DNA from: an uncultured Hyphomonadaceae bacterium | GTDB taxonomy: Bacteria > Pseudomonadota > Alphaproteobacteria > Caulobacterales > Maricaulaceae | Direction: 5' to 3' | NCBI GenBank assembly: GCA_913058335.1 | Contig: CAJXPX010000002.1 | Span: 1-64,000 of the forward strand | DNA: 64,000 nt | In this document: positions 22,546 to 42,648 of the stretch, piece by piece | How the letters are laid out: every line of letters begins with the position of its first letter | Numbering within the stretch: position 1 is the first letter of the stretch | Notes under the pieces: model-generated | Databases searched by the model: none | The model's input: the letters and a program-made list of their open reading frames with translations, nothing else | What the model was told of the DNA's origin: nothing | Position numbers and translations under genes: made by a program

Positions 22546-22573
22546 AACCCGGCCCTGTGGCCGGGTTTTTTAT
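22546..22573. terminator. Intrinsic terminator ending the TonB operon
   Basis: AACCCGGCC (22546-22554) pairs with GGCCGGGTT (22559-22567), a 9-bp stem with a CTGT loop and a T-run. The A residues on the left make it weakly bidirectional, which would also serve the convergent oligopeptidase gene. Confidence 0.93.
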
Positions 22574-35858: not shown

Positions 35859-35938
35859 TTTCAAAGACTTATAGACTCTTCTCCCGTCTATCCCACGCTT
35901 AGATGTTGACTTTTTGTTCTCTTTTATAGGAATATAAT
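35859..35938 (+). promoter_or_regulatory. Candidate promoter region of the gafY-like gene, with IHF-like site
   Basis: A perfect TATAAT lies at 35933-35938, about 53 bases before the start codon. TTGACT at 35906-35911 is 21 bases upstream of it, too far for a standard spacer, as expected if an activator is required. TTTCAAAGACTTA at 35859-35871 matches the IHF consensus with one mismatch. IHF and GafY co-activate the GTA promoter in Caulobacter. Weak evidence. Confidence 0.3.
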
Positions 35939-35991
35939 CCTCACTTATGATTTTCGGGCTATACTGCCTTCTGTCATGACCGGAGGATTAT

Positions 35992-36351: not shown

Positions 36352-37179
36352 ATGTTAAGTCCGCACCAAGTCCAAATCCTGCGCCGGCTGATTCACCACA
36401 AGGCGGTTATCTGTGTGAACACAGGCTGTGACGCCATGCCGGCCAAACCTTTGGGCGATAAGCGTAAACGCCCACATTTTTGGGTTCCCGTTAAAGACGT
36501 TCAGGCCTTAGAGTCTTACGGCGCGCTGGAACTTCATAAGGACGGCTACCGCGTCGCGAAATCGGCAGAACGGCGTCTGAAACATGGCCGCGAGGGCACT
36601 GCTGAAAATCAACATTATAGTTTGGAGGAACGGGATGTTTATGTTCACGGCGGGGTAAAGCGTAAGGCCTCGGTCAATACCCGTCTCACCGCGCTTGACC
36701 GTCTGGCCCGCCGAACGGATTATGACGGACGCCCATTACTGGACGCGCCATTGGTTGAGGCGGGGGAGCGCATTACCCGCGATTATCACGCCTCGGGCCA
36801 CGGCCTAACTGCGACGCAGCGTTATGACACCGCCGGCGTAGAAGAGGGCGGCCACGGCAATAGCGCGGAGGATCAATTCATCCGCGCCGCAGACGCCAAA
36901 GCCCGGGTCCAAGATGCGCGCGAAGCAATGGGGACGGGTCTCGACGTGGCGGTCATTGCCGTCTGCTGTCTGGATCAGTCCCTAGAGTCCGTCGAACGTG
37001 CAGAGCGATGGGCCAGTGGCAGCGGTTTAACTGTCCTAAAGCTCGGCCTTCAAAAACTTTCTGCCCATTACGGAACGGTCGCGGGCGTCAAGCGCGGCTC
37101 TGACCCTCTCCCATATCCTTATTCCTATGCTGAAGGTAACACCCATGACTCACCCAAAAAATATGCCGGAAGAAAATGA
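36352..37179 (+). CDS. DUF6456 protein, GafZ-like anti-terminator
   Basis: A 275-residue protein. An N-terminal region with a winged-helix look (about 1-75) is followed by a DUF6456 domain (about 105-240): LTALDRLARRTDYDGRPLLDAPLVEAGERITRDYH, then ARVQDAREAMGTGLDVAVIAVCCLDQSLESVERAERW and LTVLKLGLQKLSAHYG. From memory, Caulobacter GafZ is of this kind and acts as an anti-termination factor with RNA polymerase and Nus proteins. It abuts the GafY-like gene with no gap and overlaps the next gene region, so it is read with the GTA cluster. Two sequences resembling strong terminators inside the cluster would need such a factor. Confidence 0.75.
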   Translation: MLSPHQVQILRRLIHHKAVICVNTGCDAMPAKPLGDKRKRPHFWVPVKDVQALESYGALELHKDGYRVAKSAERRLKHGREGTAENQHYSLEERDVYVHGGVKRKASVNTRLTALDRLARRTDYDGRPLLDAPLVEAGERITRDYHASGHGLTATQRYDTAGVEEGGHGNSAEDQFIRAADAKARVQDAREAMGTGLDVAVIAVCCLDQSLESVERAERWASGSGLTVLKLGLQKLSAHYGTVAGVKRGSDPLPYPYSYAEGNTHDSPKKYAGRK

Positions 37180-37549
37180 CGCGCTCTTATTTGACGCGGA
37201 GGCTCCGCAAGTCGCAATTTTGCGATTGCTGGAGGAAATGAGCCTCGTGGCCGAGAAAACGCATGAGGAGGGGGAAGCCTCCGGCTCTGCGCGTCAGACG
37301 GCTGAAACCCTGGATAAAATTGCCCGGTCTATGAGCAGTACGCTGAAGTGCCTGTCTGACCTGCAAGCCCAAAATGACCGCATTCGAAAAGCGGACTCAG
37401 AGAAGAAGTTCACACGTTATGAAGACCTTCCCCCGCCTCGTCCCGAAGACCGAAAACGCTTCTTGGAACGGCTCGATCATCTCGTCGCTGAGATTGAACC
37501 TCTCTCCGACGAAGCTGCTGCTGCTCGTCTGGAGTCTCTCCGGAAATGA
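37145..37549 (+). CDS. GTA small terminase-like protein (gp1)
   Basis: About 134 residues from the ATG at 37145 (GAAGG about 10 bases upstream; an earlier ATG at 37127 lies inside the GafZ-like gene without a Shine-Dalgarno). Mostly helical, with a predicted coiled region around 28-78 (ILRLLEEMSLVAEK, ETLDKIARSMSSTLKCLSDLQ). Position before TerL and size match RcGTA gp1, the small terminase that has lost site-specific packaging. Sequence recognition alone is modest, so the call rests mainly on synteny. Confidence 0.65.
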   Translation: MTHPKNMPEENDALLFDAEAPQVAILRLLEEMSLVAEKTHEEGEASGSARQTAETLDKIARSMSSTLKCLSDLQAQNDRIRKADSEKKFTRYEDLPPPRPEDRKRFLERLDHLVAEIEPLSDEAAAARLESLRK

Positions 37550-38768
37550 TCCGTATCAGTTTTTTAAAAACTGGGAGATCTGGCAGCGAGACGATCAACG
37601 AAACGAGACGGACTGGCTGATTTGGCTTTTGCTTGGCGGCCGCGGCTGCGGCAAAACCCGTACCGGGGCCGAATGGGTGCGCCGCAAAGTTTTAGAGACA
37701 GGCCGGATTGCTTTGGTTGCCCCGACACTGGCTGATGCCCGCGAGGTTATGCTCGACGGAGAAAGCGGCCTTCTCAATATCGGATATCCTCTCGAACGTC
37801 CGGTTTACTCCCCGTCCCGCCGGCGTCTCGACTGGTCCAATGGCGCGGTCGGATATTTATTCTCCGCCGAAGATCCGGACAGCCTGCGCGGCCCGCAATT
37901 CGGCGCGGCTTGGGCGGATGAGTTCTGCGCCTGGAGCTATCCCGAAGACACTCTTTCAAATCTGCGGTTTGGTCTGCGGGTGGGGAGGCGTCCTCAATTA
38001 GTGATAACAACGACGCCCAAACCTATCCCCGCGCTCAAATCTTTAATGTCGGCCTCCGGACTGGCAGTCAGCCGGGCTCGAACCGGCTCAAATGCGGCAA
38101 ATCTGTCTCCGGCTTTTCTTTCCGCGATGGAGGACAGCTATGGGGGCACTCGCCTGGGCAGGCAGGAATTGGAAGGCGAGATATTATTTGATCAGGACGG
38201 AGCGCTGTGGTCGCAAAATATTTTCGAGATGTGCCGGCTTAACGGGCCGATTCCGCCGCTGGACAGGATTATAGTCGCGATTGACCCGCCCGTGACGTCC
38301 GGCGATCGGTCGGATCAGTGCGGCCTGATTGTGGCGGGCGTCCAAGGCGAAGGATCAACGGCGCGGGCCTATGTTCTGCATGACGGCACCGTTCAGGGAC
38401 TTTCTCCAAAGGACTGGGCCAAAGCCGCCATTTCACTCTATTGTGTGTGGGAGGCGGACTCTCTTTTGGTCGAGGTCAATCAGGGCGGGGATATGGTGAA
38501 AACAATTTTGCACACGATTGACCCAAATGTCCCTATCAAAACCGTCTTTGCCAGAAAAAGCAAAGTCGGACGGGCCGAACCTGTGGCGCTGCTTTATGAG
38601 CAAGGCCGAGTCTTTCATGCCGGACGGTTTGATGCGCTGGAGGCTGAATTGCGACAAATGGGAACGGCTGGCCGCCGGAAAAGCCCTGACCGGGCTGACG
38701 CACTCGTCTGGGCTCTGACCCATTTATTAATCCCTAATAGGGCAAACCCTATCATACGTCGGCTTTGA
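37419..38768 (+). CDS. GTA large terminase (gp2)
   Basis: About 449 residues from the ATG at 37419. Walker A GGRGCGKT (about 73-80) and Walker B WADE (about 165-168) mark the packaging ATPase, followed by a TTTPKP coupling segment. The nuclease domain begins IIVAIDPPVTSGDRSDQCG and closes with SPDRADALVWAL, giving the acidic metal-binding residues. It packages random host DNA into GTA heads. The start is uncertain: 37419 overlaps gp1 by 131 bases with a weak Shine-Dalgarno, while an in-frame TTG at 37494 would shorten the overlap but has none. The conserved ATPase begins after either start. Confidence 0.93.
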   Translation: MKTFPRLVPKTENASWNGSIISSLRLNLSPTKLLLLVWSLSGNDPYQFFKNWEIWQRDDQRNETDWLIWLLLGGRGCGKTRTGAEWVRRKVLETGRIALVAPTLADAREVMLDGESGLLNIGYPLERPVYSPSRRRLDWSNGAVGYLFSAEDPDSLRGPQFGAAWADEFCAWSYPEDTLSNLRFGLRVGRRPQLVITTTPKPIPALKSLMSASGLAVSRARTGSNAANLSPAFLSAMEDSYGGTRLGRQELEGEILFDQDGALWSQNIFEMCRLNGPIPPLDRIIVAIDPPVTSGDRSDQCGLIVAGVQGEGSTARAYVLHDGTVQGLSPKDWAKAAISLYCVWEADSLLVEVNQGGDMVKTILHTIDPNVPIKTVFARKSKVGRAEPVALLYEQGRVFHAGRFDALEAELRQMGTAGRRKSPDRADALVWALTHLLIPNRANPIIRRL

Positions 38769-38778
38769 GACTGATTTT

Positions 38779-38866
38779 ACTCACTATTTTTGCATAATCC
38801 TAGATTTTTAAAGTCTCCTTAACCCTACGCCTTCACAGTTAGGGCCAAATTAACTCTCTATTTTTG
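38779..38866 (+). repeat. Direct repeats in the gp2/TPR intergenic region
   Basis: ACTCACTATTTTTG (38779-38792) and ACTCTCTATTTTTG (38853-38866) agree at 13 of 14 positions and are 74 bases apart. The second ends 20 bases before the inserted gene at 38886. They may be regulator sites or a trace of insertion. Confidence 0.45.
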
Positions 38867-38885: not shown

Positions 38886-39323
38886 ATGGTCAAGAATGCA
38901 ATACCGAATCTAAAAGAAAGCTTGGAAGCAAAGCTCGAGCGAACGACCTCTCAACTTGGCGAGCTGAACAGGGAATTAGCGGCGCAGATGATTAAACTTG
39001 CGGCGCAAACCAATGATACGACCCCGTTAATTCAGGCGGTTGAGGCCCTGAATAAAGCCAAGACATATTATAAAATTGATACGGCCCCGAAAGAGGCGCT
39101 GATTGTGCAATGCGCTCTCGCGGATACTTTGTTGAAACTTGGCCAGAAAAACTGTGACCGTGCGGCGCTGGAAACCTCCCTCGTCGCCTATCGCCGGGCT
39201 ATCACCTTGGCCTCGCTTGTCGGTGACGAGATTCGTCGTCAGGACTTAAAGGTCAATTATAAGCTGGCCCAGACCCTGACCGGCCGTCATAAAAAAACTC
39301 CGTCCCTGTTTAAGGTTGCGTAA
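38886..39323 (+). CDS. Unassigned TPR-like helical protein inside the GTA cluster
   Basis: A 145-residue soluble protein that I do not recognise. The N-terminus (about 8-40) is a likely coiled coil (LEAKLERTTSQLGELNRELAAQMIKLA). The rest looks like two or three TPR-like helical pairs (ALNKAKTYYKIDTAPKEALIVQCALADTLLKLGQ, LETSLVAYRRAITLASLVG). It sits between the large terminase and the portal gene, where RcGTA has no gene. It has its own 117-base leader and a 131-base structured gap behind it, unlike its tightly packed neighbours. It could be a regulatory or assembly factor, or a later insertion. Confidence 0.65.
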   Translation: MVKNAIPNLKESLEAKLERTTSQLGELNRELAAQMIKLAAQTNDTTPLIQAVEALNKAKTYYKIDTAPKEALIVQCALADTLLKLGQKNCDRAALETSLVAYRRAITLASLVGDEIRRQDLKVNYKLAQTLTGRHKKTPSLFKVA

Positions 39324-39333
39324 AACCTAACAG

Positions 39334-39349
39334 TTTCAAAGCTTTGAAA
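39334..39349. promoter_or_regulatory. Perfect 16-bp palindrome before the portal gene
   Basis: TTTCAAAGCTTTGAAA is a perfect palindrome starting 11 bases after the TPR-like gene. Two hairpins follow in the same leader: TCCGC-AGTTA-GCGGA (39368-39382) and GTGCGT/ACGCAC (39414-39433). The palindrome could be an operator; the hairpins suggest structured leader RNA. Confidence 0.45.
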
Positions 39350-39454
39350 GCAATTTACAGAGAATGATCCGCAGTTAGCGGAATGGGGGTATAAACACCT
39401 TATCGCCGGAATTGTGCGTTGCGCCTCACGCACCGCCCGAAAGGATAAGCCCCT

Positions 39455-40630
39455 ATGTTTGATTTTCTAAAGCCCGCTGCAGGCCGCAGCGGGTTTTTTA
39501 CTGCGCCGCCTTCTCATACGCCTGAAACCAAAGAGGCACAGCCTCTTATCGCCCTGCAACTGGCCTCCGGGGCGCATTGGACGCCGCGTAATTTCTCGAG
39601 TCTCTGCCGAGAAGGCTTTGCCCGTAACCCTATTGTTTATCGCTGTGTGCGCCTGATTGCAGAAGCCGCCGCAAGCGTTCCGTTTTCTGTTCAGGGCGAA
39701 GAAAGCGCGTCCGAGTTTTTAACCCGCTCGCCGCTTCTGTCGAGTTCAACGGAAACCCTCGAATCCTTTTACGGTTATTTGCAACTCTCCGGGGAGGCGT
39801 TCCTTGAAGCCCGAATGATCAGCGGCACCCCCTCTTTTCTGTTTGCGCTTAACCCAGAAGAGGTCTCGCCGCTTCAAACCCGAACAGGCGCTCAGACGGC
39901 TTGGGATGTTGAAACCAATGACGGCGCAAAACGCCGTCTCCACCTTGACCTCGCAACAGGCCGATCCCCTCTTTTGGCGATGCACCTTTTCAGCCCGCAA
40001 GACAATGTCTCGCCTTTGCAAGCAGCGGCGCAGGCCGTGGATTTACACAATGAGGGCGGGCGTTGGGCCAAAGCGCTTTTAGAAAATTCCGCCCGCCCCA
40101 GCGGCGCGCTCATCTATAAGGGAGCAAGCGGGTCTGATCATTTAACCGAAGACCAATTCGGGCGTTTGAAATCCGAACTTGAATCCGGCCATGCCGGGGC
40201 GCGCCATGCCGGGCGTCCTTTGATCTTGGAGGGCGGTCTTGATTGGAAATCCATGAGCCTGTCGCCGACGGATATGGATTTTATTCAAGCGCGGCGTGAA
40301 GCCGCTCGTGAAATTGCTTTGGCTTTTGGAGTGCCGCCCCTATTGCTTGGCCTGCCGGGGGATAATACTTACGCCAATTACCGAGAAGCCAATCAGGCGT
40401 TTTGGCGGCAAACGATTATTCCGCTCGTCCGCAAAACCTCTGACGGCTTGCAAAGTTGGCTCCGTCCCTGGTTTGGCGATGACCTGCTCATTTCACCGGA
40501 TCTCGAAAAAGTGCCGGCCTTATCCGAAGATCGCAACACCCTTTGGCAAAGACTGACCACTGCTGATTTCCTGTCTGATGCCGAGAAACGCGCGCTCGCC
40601 GGACTAACGCCGGACGGAGGCAAGATATGA
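39455..40630 (+). CDS. GTA portal protein (gp3, HK97 family)
   Basis: A 391-residue HK97-type portal. The conserved core includes NPIVYRCVRLIAEAAASVPF, the PLQAAAQAVDLHNEGGRWAKALLENSARPSGALIY region and the C-terminal FGVPPLLLGLPGDNTYANYREANQAFWRQTI. It forms the dodecameric DNA gate at one head vertex. AAGGAT precedes the ATG. Codons about 7-15 contain a sequence that reads as a textbook intrinsic terminator. It overlaps the next gene by 4 bases. Confidence 0.95.
   Translation: MFDFLKPAAGRSGFFTAPPSHTPETKEAQPLIALQLASGAHWTPRNFSSLCREGFARNPIVYRCVRLIAEAAASVPFSVQGEESASEFLTRSPLLSSSTETLESFYGYLQLSGEAFLEARMISGTPSFLFALNPEEVSPLQTRTGAQTAWDVETNDGAKRRLHLDLATGRSPLLAMHLFSPQDNVSPLQAAAQAVDLHNEGGRWAKALLENSARPSGALIYKGASGSDHLTEDQFGRLKSELESGHAGARHAGRPLILEGGLDWKSMSLSPTDMDFIQARREAAREIALAFGVPPLLLGLPGDNTYANYREANQAFWRQTIIPLVRKTSDGLQSWLRPWFGDDLLISPDLEKVPALSEDRNTLWQRLTTADFLSDAEKRALAGLTPDGGKI
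39473..39499 (+). terminator. Intragenic terminator-like hairpin at the start of the portal gene
   Basis: CCCGCTGC (39473-39480) pairs perfectly with GCAGCGGG (39486-39493) around AGGCC, followed by six T (39494-39499). This lies 18 bases after the portal start codon, in frame, so it is both coding sequence and a canonical terminator. A GafZ-like anti-terminator encoded upstream would explain read-through. Confidence 0.75.
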
Positions 40631-42620: not shown

Positions 42621-42648
42621 AAGGTCGCCTGCCGGGCGGCCTTTTTTA
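42621..42648 (+). terminator. Intrinsic terminator between capsid and connector genes
   Basis: AAGGTCGCC (42621-42629) pairs with GGCGGCCTT (42635-42643; one G-T pair) around a TGCCG loop, with a T-run to about 42648. It would stop most transcripts after the capsid gene, giving high capsid dosage, unless anti-termination occurs. Confidence 0.85.

Follow-up and report, generated by a model that had tools for sequence, protein, structure and literature searches.

A terminator-like hairpin in the first portal codons of a gene transfer agent cluster and its possible place in GafZ-type antitermination control

Introduction

In the pR'-tR' region of phage lambda, on which Q acts, a promoter is followed by a short leader and an intrinsic terminator, and the antiterminator loaded at the promoter opens the late genes. 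In Caulobacter, GafZ is reported as an antiterminator for the expression of a gene transfer agent (GTA), its binding element being a palindrome located between the -35 and -10 sequences (Tran and Le 2024, PMC11150451). The promoter concerned, PgtaT, includes an IHF site, a -35 sequence (AATCAT), the palindrome needed for GafZ binding and a -10 sequence (TATCTTT), and terGTA, found just downstream of the terminase gene, is made up of three GC-rich direct repeats, each of 150 bp and with imperfect inverted repeats (PMC11150451). The same paper describes GafZ as unlike known antiterminators, Q among them, in both sequence and structure, and calls for structural work on the modification of the polymerase, the terminator used there being the atypical repeat one. 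In Pseudomonas aeruginosa, AlpA recognises a promoter element, and the polymerase then bypasses a downstream intrinsic terminator (PMC9371919).

The present work deals with a window of 64,000 nucleotides, i.e. the whole stretch of DNA analysed, from an uncultured Hyphomonadaceae bacterium. An earlier note had pointed to a hairpin followed by T residues near the start of the portal gene and had read it as an off-switch relieved by GafZ-type antitermination. Neither a portal-start terminator nor a portal promoter of this kind was seen in the accessible parts of the open-licence literature, including PMC11150451, PMC9632790, PMC11841831 and PMC13236601; a 2025 study of antitermination in the GTA of Bartonella could overlap.

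Organization of the GTA cluster

The hairpin belongs to an RcGTA-type cluster borne by the + strand, in which gafY-like and gafZ-like genes are followed by genes for the terminase, orf145, the portal protein, the prohead protease, the capsid, the head-tail adaptor and closure proteins (Table 1). The gafY-like and gafZ-like genes are adjacent and upstream of the hairpin, the latter by 2.3 kb. The hairpin itself stands downstream of the terminase gene and upstream of the structural genes, between the regulator and terminase genes on one side and the head and tail genes on the other.

The portal start codon is backed by a Shine-Dalgarno-like AAAGGA (39440-39445) and by a relative with 68% identity, whose alignment begins at residue 1. 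The DUF6456 gene is referred to as GafZ-like from its family match and from the distribution of the family in 14 control genomes, among which Caulobacter vibrioides alone carries it, DUF6456 being presumably the family of GafZ. The accessible main text of the 2022 GafZ paper leaves the DUF of GafZ unnamed.

The small gene orf145 was matched in 13 of the 14 same-genus stretches fetched, its PHROG matches being weak. The gap between the terminase gene and orf145 carries a 17-nt direct repeat (88%; 38776-38792 and 38850-38866). As regards repeats of the terGTA type, no tandem repeat was found between 37300 and 39600, and a single 17-nt two-copy direct repeat was the only one between 38700 and 39520.

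Table 1. Positions of genes and sequence elements discussed in the text, numbered from the first letter of the window
Feature	Position	Strand	Remark
gafY promoter-like block: GAATATAATCCTC, 17 nt, TATACT	35930..35965	+	
gafY-like gene, DnaA domain IV helix-turn-helix	35992..36351	+	
gafZ-like gene, DUF6456	36352..37179	+	sole DUF6456 match found in the genome
Terminase large subunit gene	37374..38768	+	start codon uncertain
orf145, conserved small gene before portal	38886..39323	+	
IHF-like site TTTCAAAGCTTTG	39334..39346	+	starts 26 nt before the -35-like block
-35-like block GAGAATGATCCGC	39360..39372	+	
Spacer; palindrome in several relatives (candidate GafZ-loading element)	39373..39389	+	weak in this genome
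-10-like TATAAA	39390..39395	+	17 nt after ATCCGC
Portal gene, Phage_portal, HK97 type	39455..40630	+	
Terminator-like hairpin, 8-bp stem and 5-nt loop	39473..39493	+	portal codons 7-13; sequence read, terminator score
T-run of the terminator, TTTTTT	39494..39499	+	sequence read; T6-7 retained in L154 and L155
Second strong terminator, between capsid and head-tail adaptor genes	42623..42647	+	d=46

A terminator-like hairpin in the portal gene

As the earlier note had described, a perfect GC-rich stem of 8 bp, a loop of five bases and six T are read in the sequence, 18 nt into the portal ORF. The 5' arm CCCGCTGC (39473-39480) and the 3' arm GCAGCGGG (39486-39493), which form 7 G-C pairs and 1 A-U pair, enclose the loop AGGCC (39481-39485) and are directly followed by the T-run (39494-39499). 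The features of an intrinsic terminator are thus present, namely a stable G+C-rich hairpin (-15.8 kcal/mol) and a T-run directly 3' of the stem. The hairpin reaches a d-score of 49, calculated by the d'Aubenton-Carafa method, in which d>0 is terminator-like. In a d-score scan of the + strand of the 64-kb window, it ranks third, after the sites at 22548 (61.7) and 10863 (52.2) and before that at 42623 (46.2), these three being the only other sites with d>=45. A stock terminator scan does not list the hairpin, supposedly because it counts G-T and A-T pairs and so prolongs the stem into the T-run.

Such a structure is rarely obtained from the encoded peptide. When the first 40 portal codons were resampled synonymously (20,000 draws), d>=49 was reached in a single draw (5e-5); the frequencies were 1.0% for d>=30, 12.4% for d>=10 and 25.6% for d>=0. 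The stem pattern, with at most one mismatch, has a single site in the 3.06-Mb genome. Only eight matches with d>=45 were detected in 786,828 nt of ORFs, taken from 120 sequences of which some overlap. Four are portal-start terminators (this window, L154, L155 and, in the leader, L145, which is from the genome of L020), three occupy the post-capsid place in ORF calls starting early (L142 and L032, on one contig, and L140), and one is found elsewhere (L106, five bases into the ORF).

The nearest relatives found are two IMG/VR contigs, L154 and L155, with 87% and 85% portal identity. In both, the stem and the T-run are exactly retained with a different loop, giving d=63 and d=55. When only codons with the same amino acid in all three sequences are considered, those of the stem and T-run are identical in 7/7 cases, versus 0/3 for the loop and flank codons 6, 9 and 10; in the rest of the portal gene, 109/299 such codons are identical, a rate at which 7/7 has P=8.6e-4. 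Codon sets with the same spacing elsewhere in the gene are wholly identical in 0/123 cases. No other IMG/VR contig was found to combine this stem with a near-fixed loop and a T-run.

The hairpin therefore appears to be under selection at synonymous sites and has the look of a genuine intrinsic terminator at the beginning of the portal gene. The earlier note had proposed to judge it by its conservation in relatives, and the answer is divided: synonymous conservation is found in the two closest relatives, and no clean compensatory change of the stem was seen among the relatives compared. Farther away, L156 (72% identity) has no terminator with d>=8 at the portal start, and L002 (68% identity) has a weaker, bulged hairpin with d=13. 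A hairpin of a sister clade, GTCGG-TCCG-CCGAC (L009, L012, L013 and L018; L011 has a paired change), was considered as a case of covariation and discarded, as synonymous resampling gave P of 0.22-0.86 in these five loci and no T-run follows.

A promoter-like block upstream of the portal gene

The noncoding DNA upstream of the portal gene is conserved in the genus and comprises a GAGAATNATCCNC-like sequence, 17-18 nt, a TATAAA-like sequence and then a AGCTTATCG-like sequence. This block is present in 15/15 same-genus clusters with a portal gene, where the distance from its start to the portal ATG is 82-134 nt. It is also found in other genera, as 33/123 loci score >4 with a portal-trained matrix, 15 of these 33 having served to train it; the highest score in 211 control segments was 2.9. 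With each training locus left out in turn, 14/15 score at least 14.0 among the 60 matches listed; the block of L005, absent from those 60, was found by regular expression and scores 17.7 with the full model. Four redundant loci were removed before scoring, two of the 19 viral loci (L165 and L170) were excluded as their portal start lies off the contig, and L017 (10.7 at -370) falls beyond the -300 limit and is uncounted. The 95% redundancy rule applies except between viral loci and the others; clusters were also drawn at 75, 78 and 80%. The same-genus record G017/L027 is the same as L039, labelled Algimonas sp.

An IHF-like motif, WWTCARNNNNTTR, defined from the IHF consensus, occurs in 17/33 block-bearing loci, including 11/15 same-genus ones, versus a rate of 0.006 in shuffled sequences. 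Its spacing from the block is exactly -26 in 16 of the 17 and -25 in the other. The pattern is missing from the remaining 16/33, including L161, the contig of which is too short. Palindromes are enriched in the spacers of the 33 loci, with a mean longest arm of 3.70 versus 3.10 after shuffling (0/300 shuffle means as high), and arms of 6-7 bp are found in eight of them. In this genome the arm has only 3 bp, and it is also weak in the two closest relatives; a palindrome seen by eye, TCCGC-AGTTA-GCGGA, overlaps the -35 block.

The block is best read as a promoter, with a predicted transcription start near 39402, so that the hairpin would lie about 71-91 nt after the start. With this conserved block between orf145 and the portal gene, the hairpin would be a terminator of the leader type, close to a promoter, and not only an intra-operon stop.

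Upstream of gafY, GGAATATAATCCTC is found in 8/8 genus clusters in which this region is readable, this genome included, and is followed by TATA after 16-18 nt in 3/8 of them. The gafY block scores 4.3 with the portal-trained matrix, the next unrelated site of the window scoring 3.5. Because of this small number of TATA sequences and of these close scores, the kinship of the gafY and portal blocks is suggestive only. Genome-wide, the pattern has two exact matches, which are the gafY and portal sites from which it was drawn, and 20 one-mismatch matches versus 4 for the reversed pattern. A wider regulon was searched for among these 22 sites and not retained, no convincing accessory GTA gene being found (L121 and L126 were checked by ORF list). 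One of the one-mismatch matches, L121:1501-1533 (G000 C3:26848-26880), has GGGGGTATA before its -10 sequence, as at the portal gene.

Terminators at the portal start of other loci

Between -200 and +120 of the portal start, d>=30 is reached in 8/110 loci, versus none in 104.5 kb of portal bodies and none in antisense. Weaker scores are not enriched in this interval (12 sense versus 14 antisense for d>=10; 19 versus 32 for d>=0). Between the -10-like sequence and ATG+75, d>=30 is found in 7/33 block-bearing loci, a count that mistakenly uses an upstream ATG for L019, L026 and L015, the anchors of which were corrected in the resampling test. These terminators lie in the coding sequence in L001, L154 and L155 and in the leader in L019, L020, L031 and L158, and their sequences differ between at least three groups, i.e. 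the trio that includes this genome, L019 with L020, and L031 and L158.

Strong terminators near the portal gene are less frequent in loci devoid of the block (4/90 versus 7/33, Fisher 0.008). Once relatedness is considered, the excess is modest, since clusters at 75% nucleotide identity give 4/16 block-bearing versus 3/30 others. In same-genus clusters, d>=30 is observed at the portal start in 3/15 and d>=0 in 5/15. The device is not universal, and most block-bearing clusters have no canonical terminator at this place.

Another strong terminator, scored over 42623-42641, follows the capsid gene in the window (Table 1). Counterparts with d>=30 and different sequences exist in 10/14 same-genus clusters with a capsid match, this genome included; the exceptions are G013 (d=16) and G001, G008 and G017, which have none, the capsid match of G017 being short, and G016 is outside the 14 as its contig has no capsid gene. 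A sense terminator inside the late operon fits a read-through polymerase and may tune the expression of capsid and tail genes.

Proposed mechanism and alternative explanations

The hairpin is probably a working intrinsic terminator that guards the GTA head and tail genes and is bypassed only by a polymerase modified by the GafZ-like protein. RNA polymerase would arrive from gafY-gafZ-terminase-orf145 or start at the block before the portal gene. Unmodified, it would stop at the T-run after a leader of about 90-100 nt; modified by the GafZ-like antiterminator, which would load at the block, it would read into the head and tail genes. Termination in vivo, a promoter starting near 39402, the loading of GafZ and its bypass of the terminator are what this arrangement leads us to infer. 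The central idea of the earlier note is supported, as the hairpin looks like a selected terminator, has GafY-like and GafZ-like genes upstream and parts regulators and terminase from head and tail genes. The conserved promoter-like block had not been anticipated, and the distribution is patchy. Escape through a closely following ribosome, which the note had also allowed for, seems unlikely from geometry: the stop of the preceding ORF, at 39323, is 150 nt upstream of the stem, and the polymerase would come to the end of the T-run only 45 nt after 39455, leaving a ribosome that initiates there hardly any time to load.

A broader scheme can be put forward tentatively, for which the odds are somewhat less than even. 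In this branch of Caulobacterales, a GafY/IHF-type portal promoter that loads GafZ, combined with a terminator placed within about 100 nt in the leader or coding sequence, would form an internal late switch, such that the particle genes are expressed by polymerase carrying GafZ and by no other; the terminator would have arisen repeatedly, its position and not its sequence being selected.

Among the other explanations, a true terminator ending the gafYZ-terminase-orf145 transcript, with structural genes expressed by incomplete termination or from another promoter and without any bypass by GafZ, is rather unlikely. The hairpin does lie downstream of that gene group, terminator efficiencies are seldom 100%, and strong terminators near the portal gene also occur in the 4/90 loci without the block. 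A plain operon-end terminator is nevertheless expected upstream of the following promoter; in the seven block-bearing loci the strong terminator is 3' of the -10-like sequence, the only side covered by that count, and in scans that took in the upstream side, no block-bearing locus showed a terminator with d>=30 ahead of the block. The window also has no other strong sense terminator between the terminase and portal genes. Because RNA structure over the first codons of a gene affects translation, a hairpin at this place might instead tune portal translation or mRNA stability without terminating transcription, as could be argued from L002 (P=0.004) and L004 (P=0.012), in which structure is stronger than in synonymous resampling. 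This is improbable, given that the T-run codons are conserved along with the stem, that the four leader terminators of the previous section are untranslated, and that start-segment structure is unusual (P<0.05) in 5/33 loci versus 7/99 controls and not in the other 28/33.

Chance, by which the peptide KPAAGRSGFF just happens to be coded by an inverted repeat and T residues, is an improbable source of the hairpin: the rarity under codon resampling, the exact synonymous conservation of stem and T-run and the location after a conserved block all speak against it, even if rare things are expected when a whole 64-kb window is examined and most congeners have no hairpin. The least probable explanation is a classical attenuator, in which the leader would alternate between antiterminator and terminator hairpins. 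The predicted leader of about 70 nt between the start site and the hairpin would give room for it, and this leader pairs weakly with the region of the 5' arm (duplex of -10.0 kcal/mol). A protein antiterminator is more likely, because the MFE and centroid structures of the predicted leader both contain the terminator hairpin, which is stabler than the competing pairing, and because no Rfam family matches between 35800 and 43000 at E<=0.1, which also counts against a riboswitch. The foremost candidate for this antiterminator is GafZ, in view of the GafZ-like gene that the cluster carries and of what is reported for Caulobacter.

If the guarded-terminator reading is true, it would explain how a lethal particle operon is kept silent with its regulators in the same cluster. 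Moreover, promoter and terminator would together make up a compact unit (about 170 bp), of which relatives carry natural variants and which would suit in vitro and structural work on GafZ.

Comparison with known systems

As far as the Caulobacter system is described in the accessible text of PMC11150451, this locus resembles it in that an RcGTA-type cluster encoding GafY-like and GafZ-like proteins carries a terminator 3' of its terminase gene. The order of elements is also that of PgtaT, with an IHF-like site, a -35 sequence (AATCAT there, AATGATCC here) and a -10 sequence (TATCTTT there, TATAAA here, and TATCTT in L014, L160 and L164). Palindromes likewise stand between the -35 and -10 sequences in several relatives. 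Unlike the repeats of terGTA, the terminator here consists of one 21-nt hairpin and lies within coding DNA. The block stands before the portal gene, whereas PgtaT precedes the terminase gene, and gafYZ are located inside the cluster, whereas CCNA_01111-01112 form a separate locus in Caulobacter. The proposed action of GafZ is like that of AlpA, which, as reported in the accessible text, controls a programmed cell death pathway and not a GTA. The proposed layout is like lambda pR'-tR', except that the terminator lies inside the coding sequence of the first structural gene. Overall, the locus would represent a variant of GTA control by GafZ and no separate kind of system.
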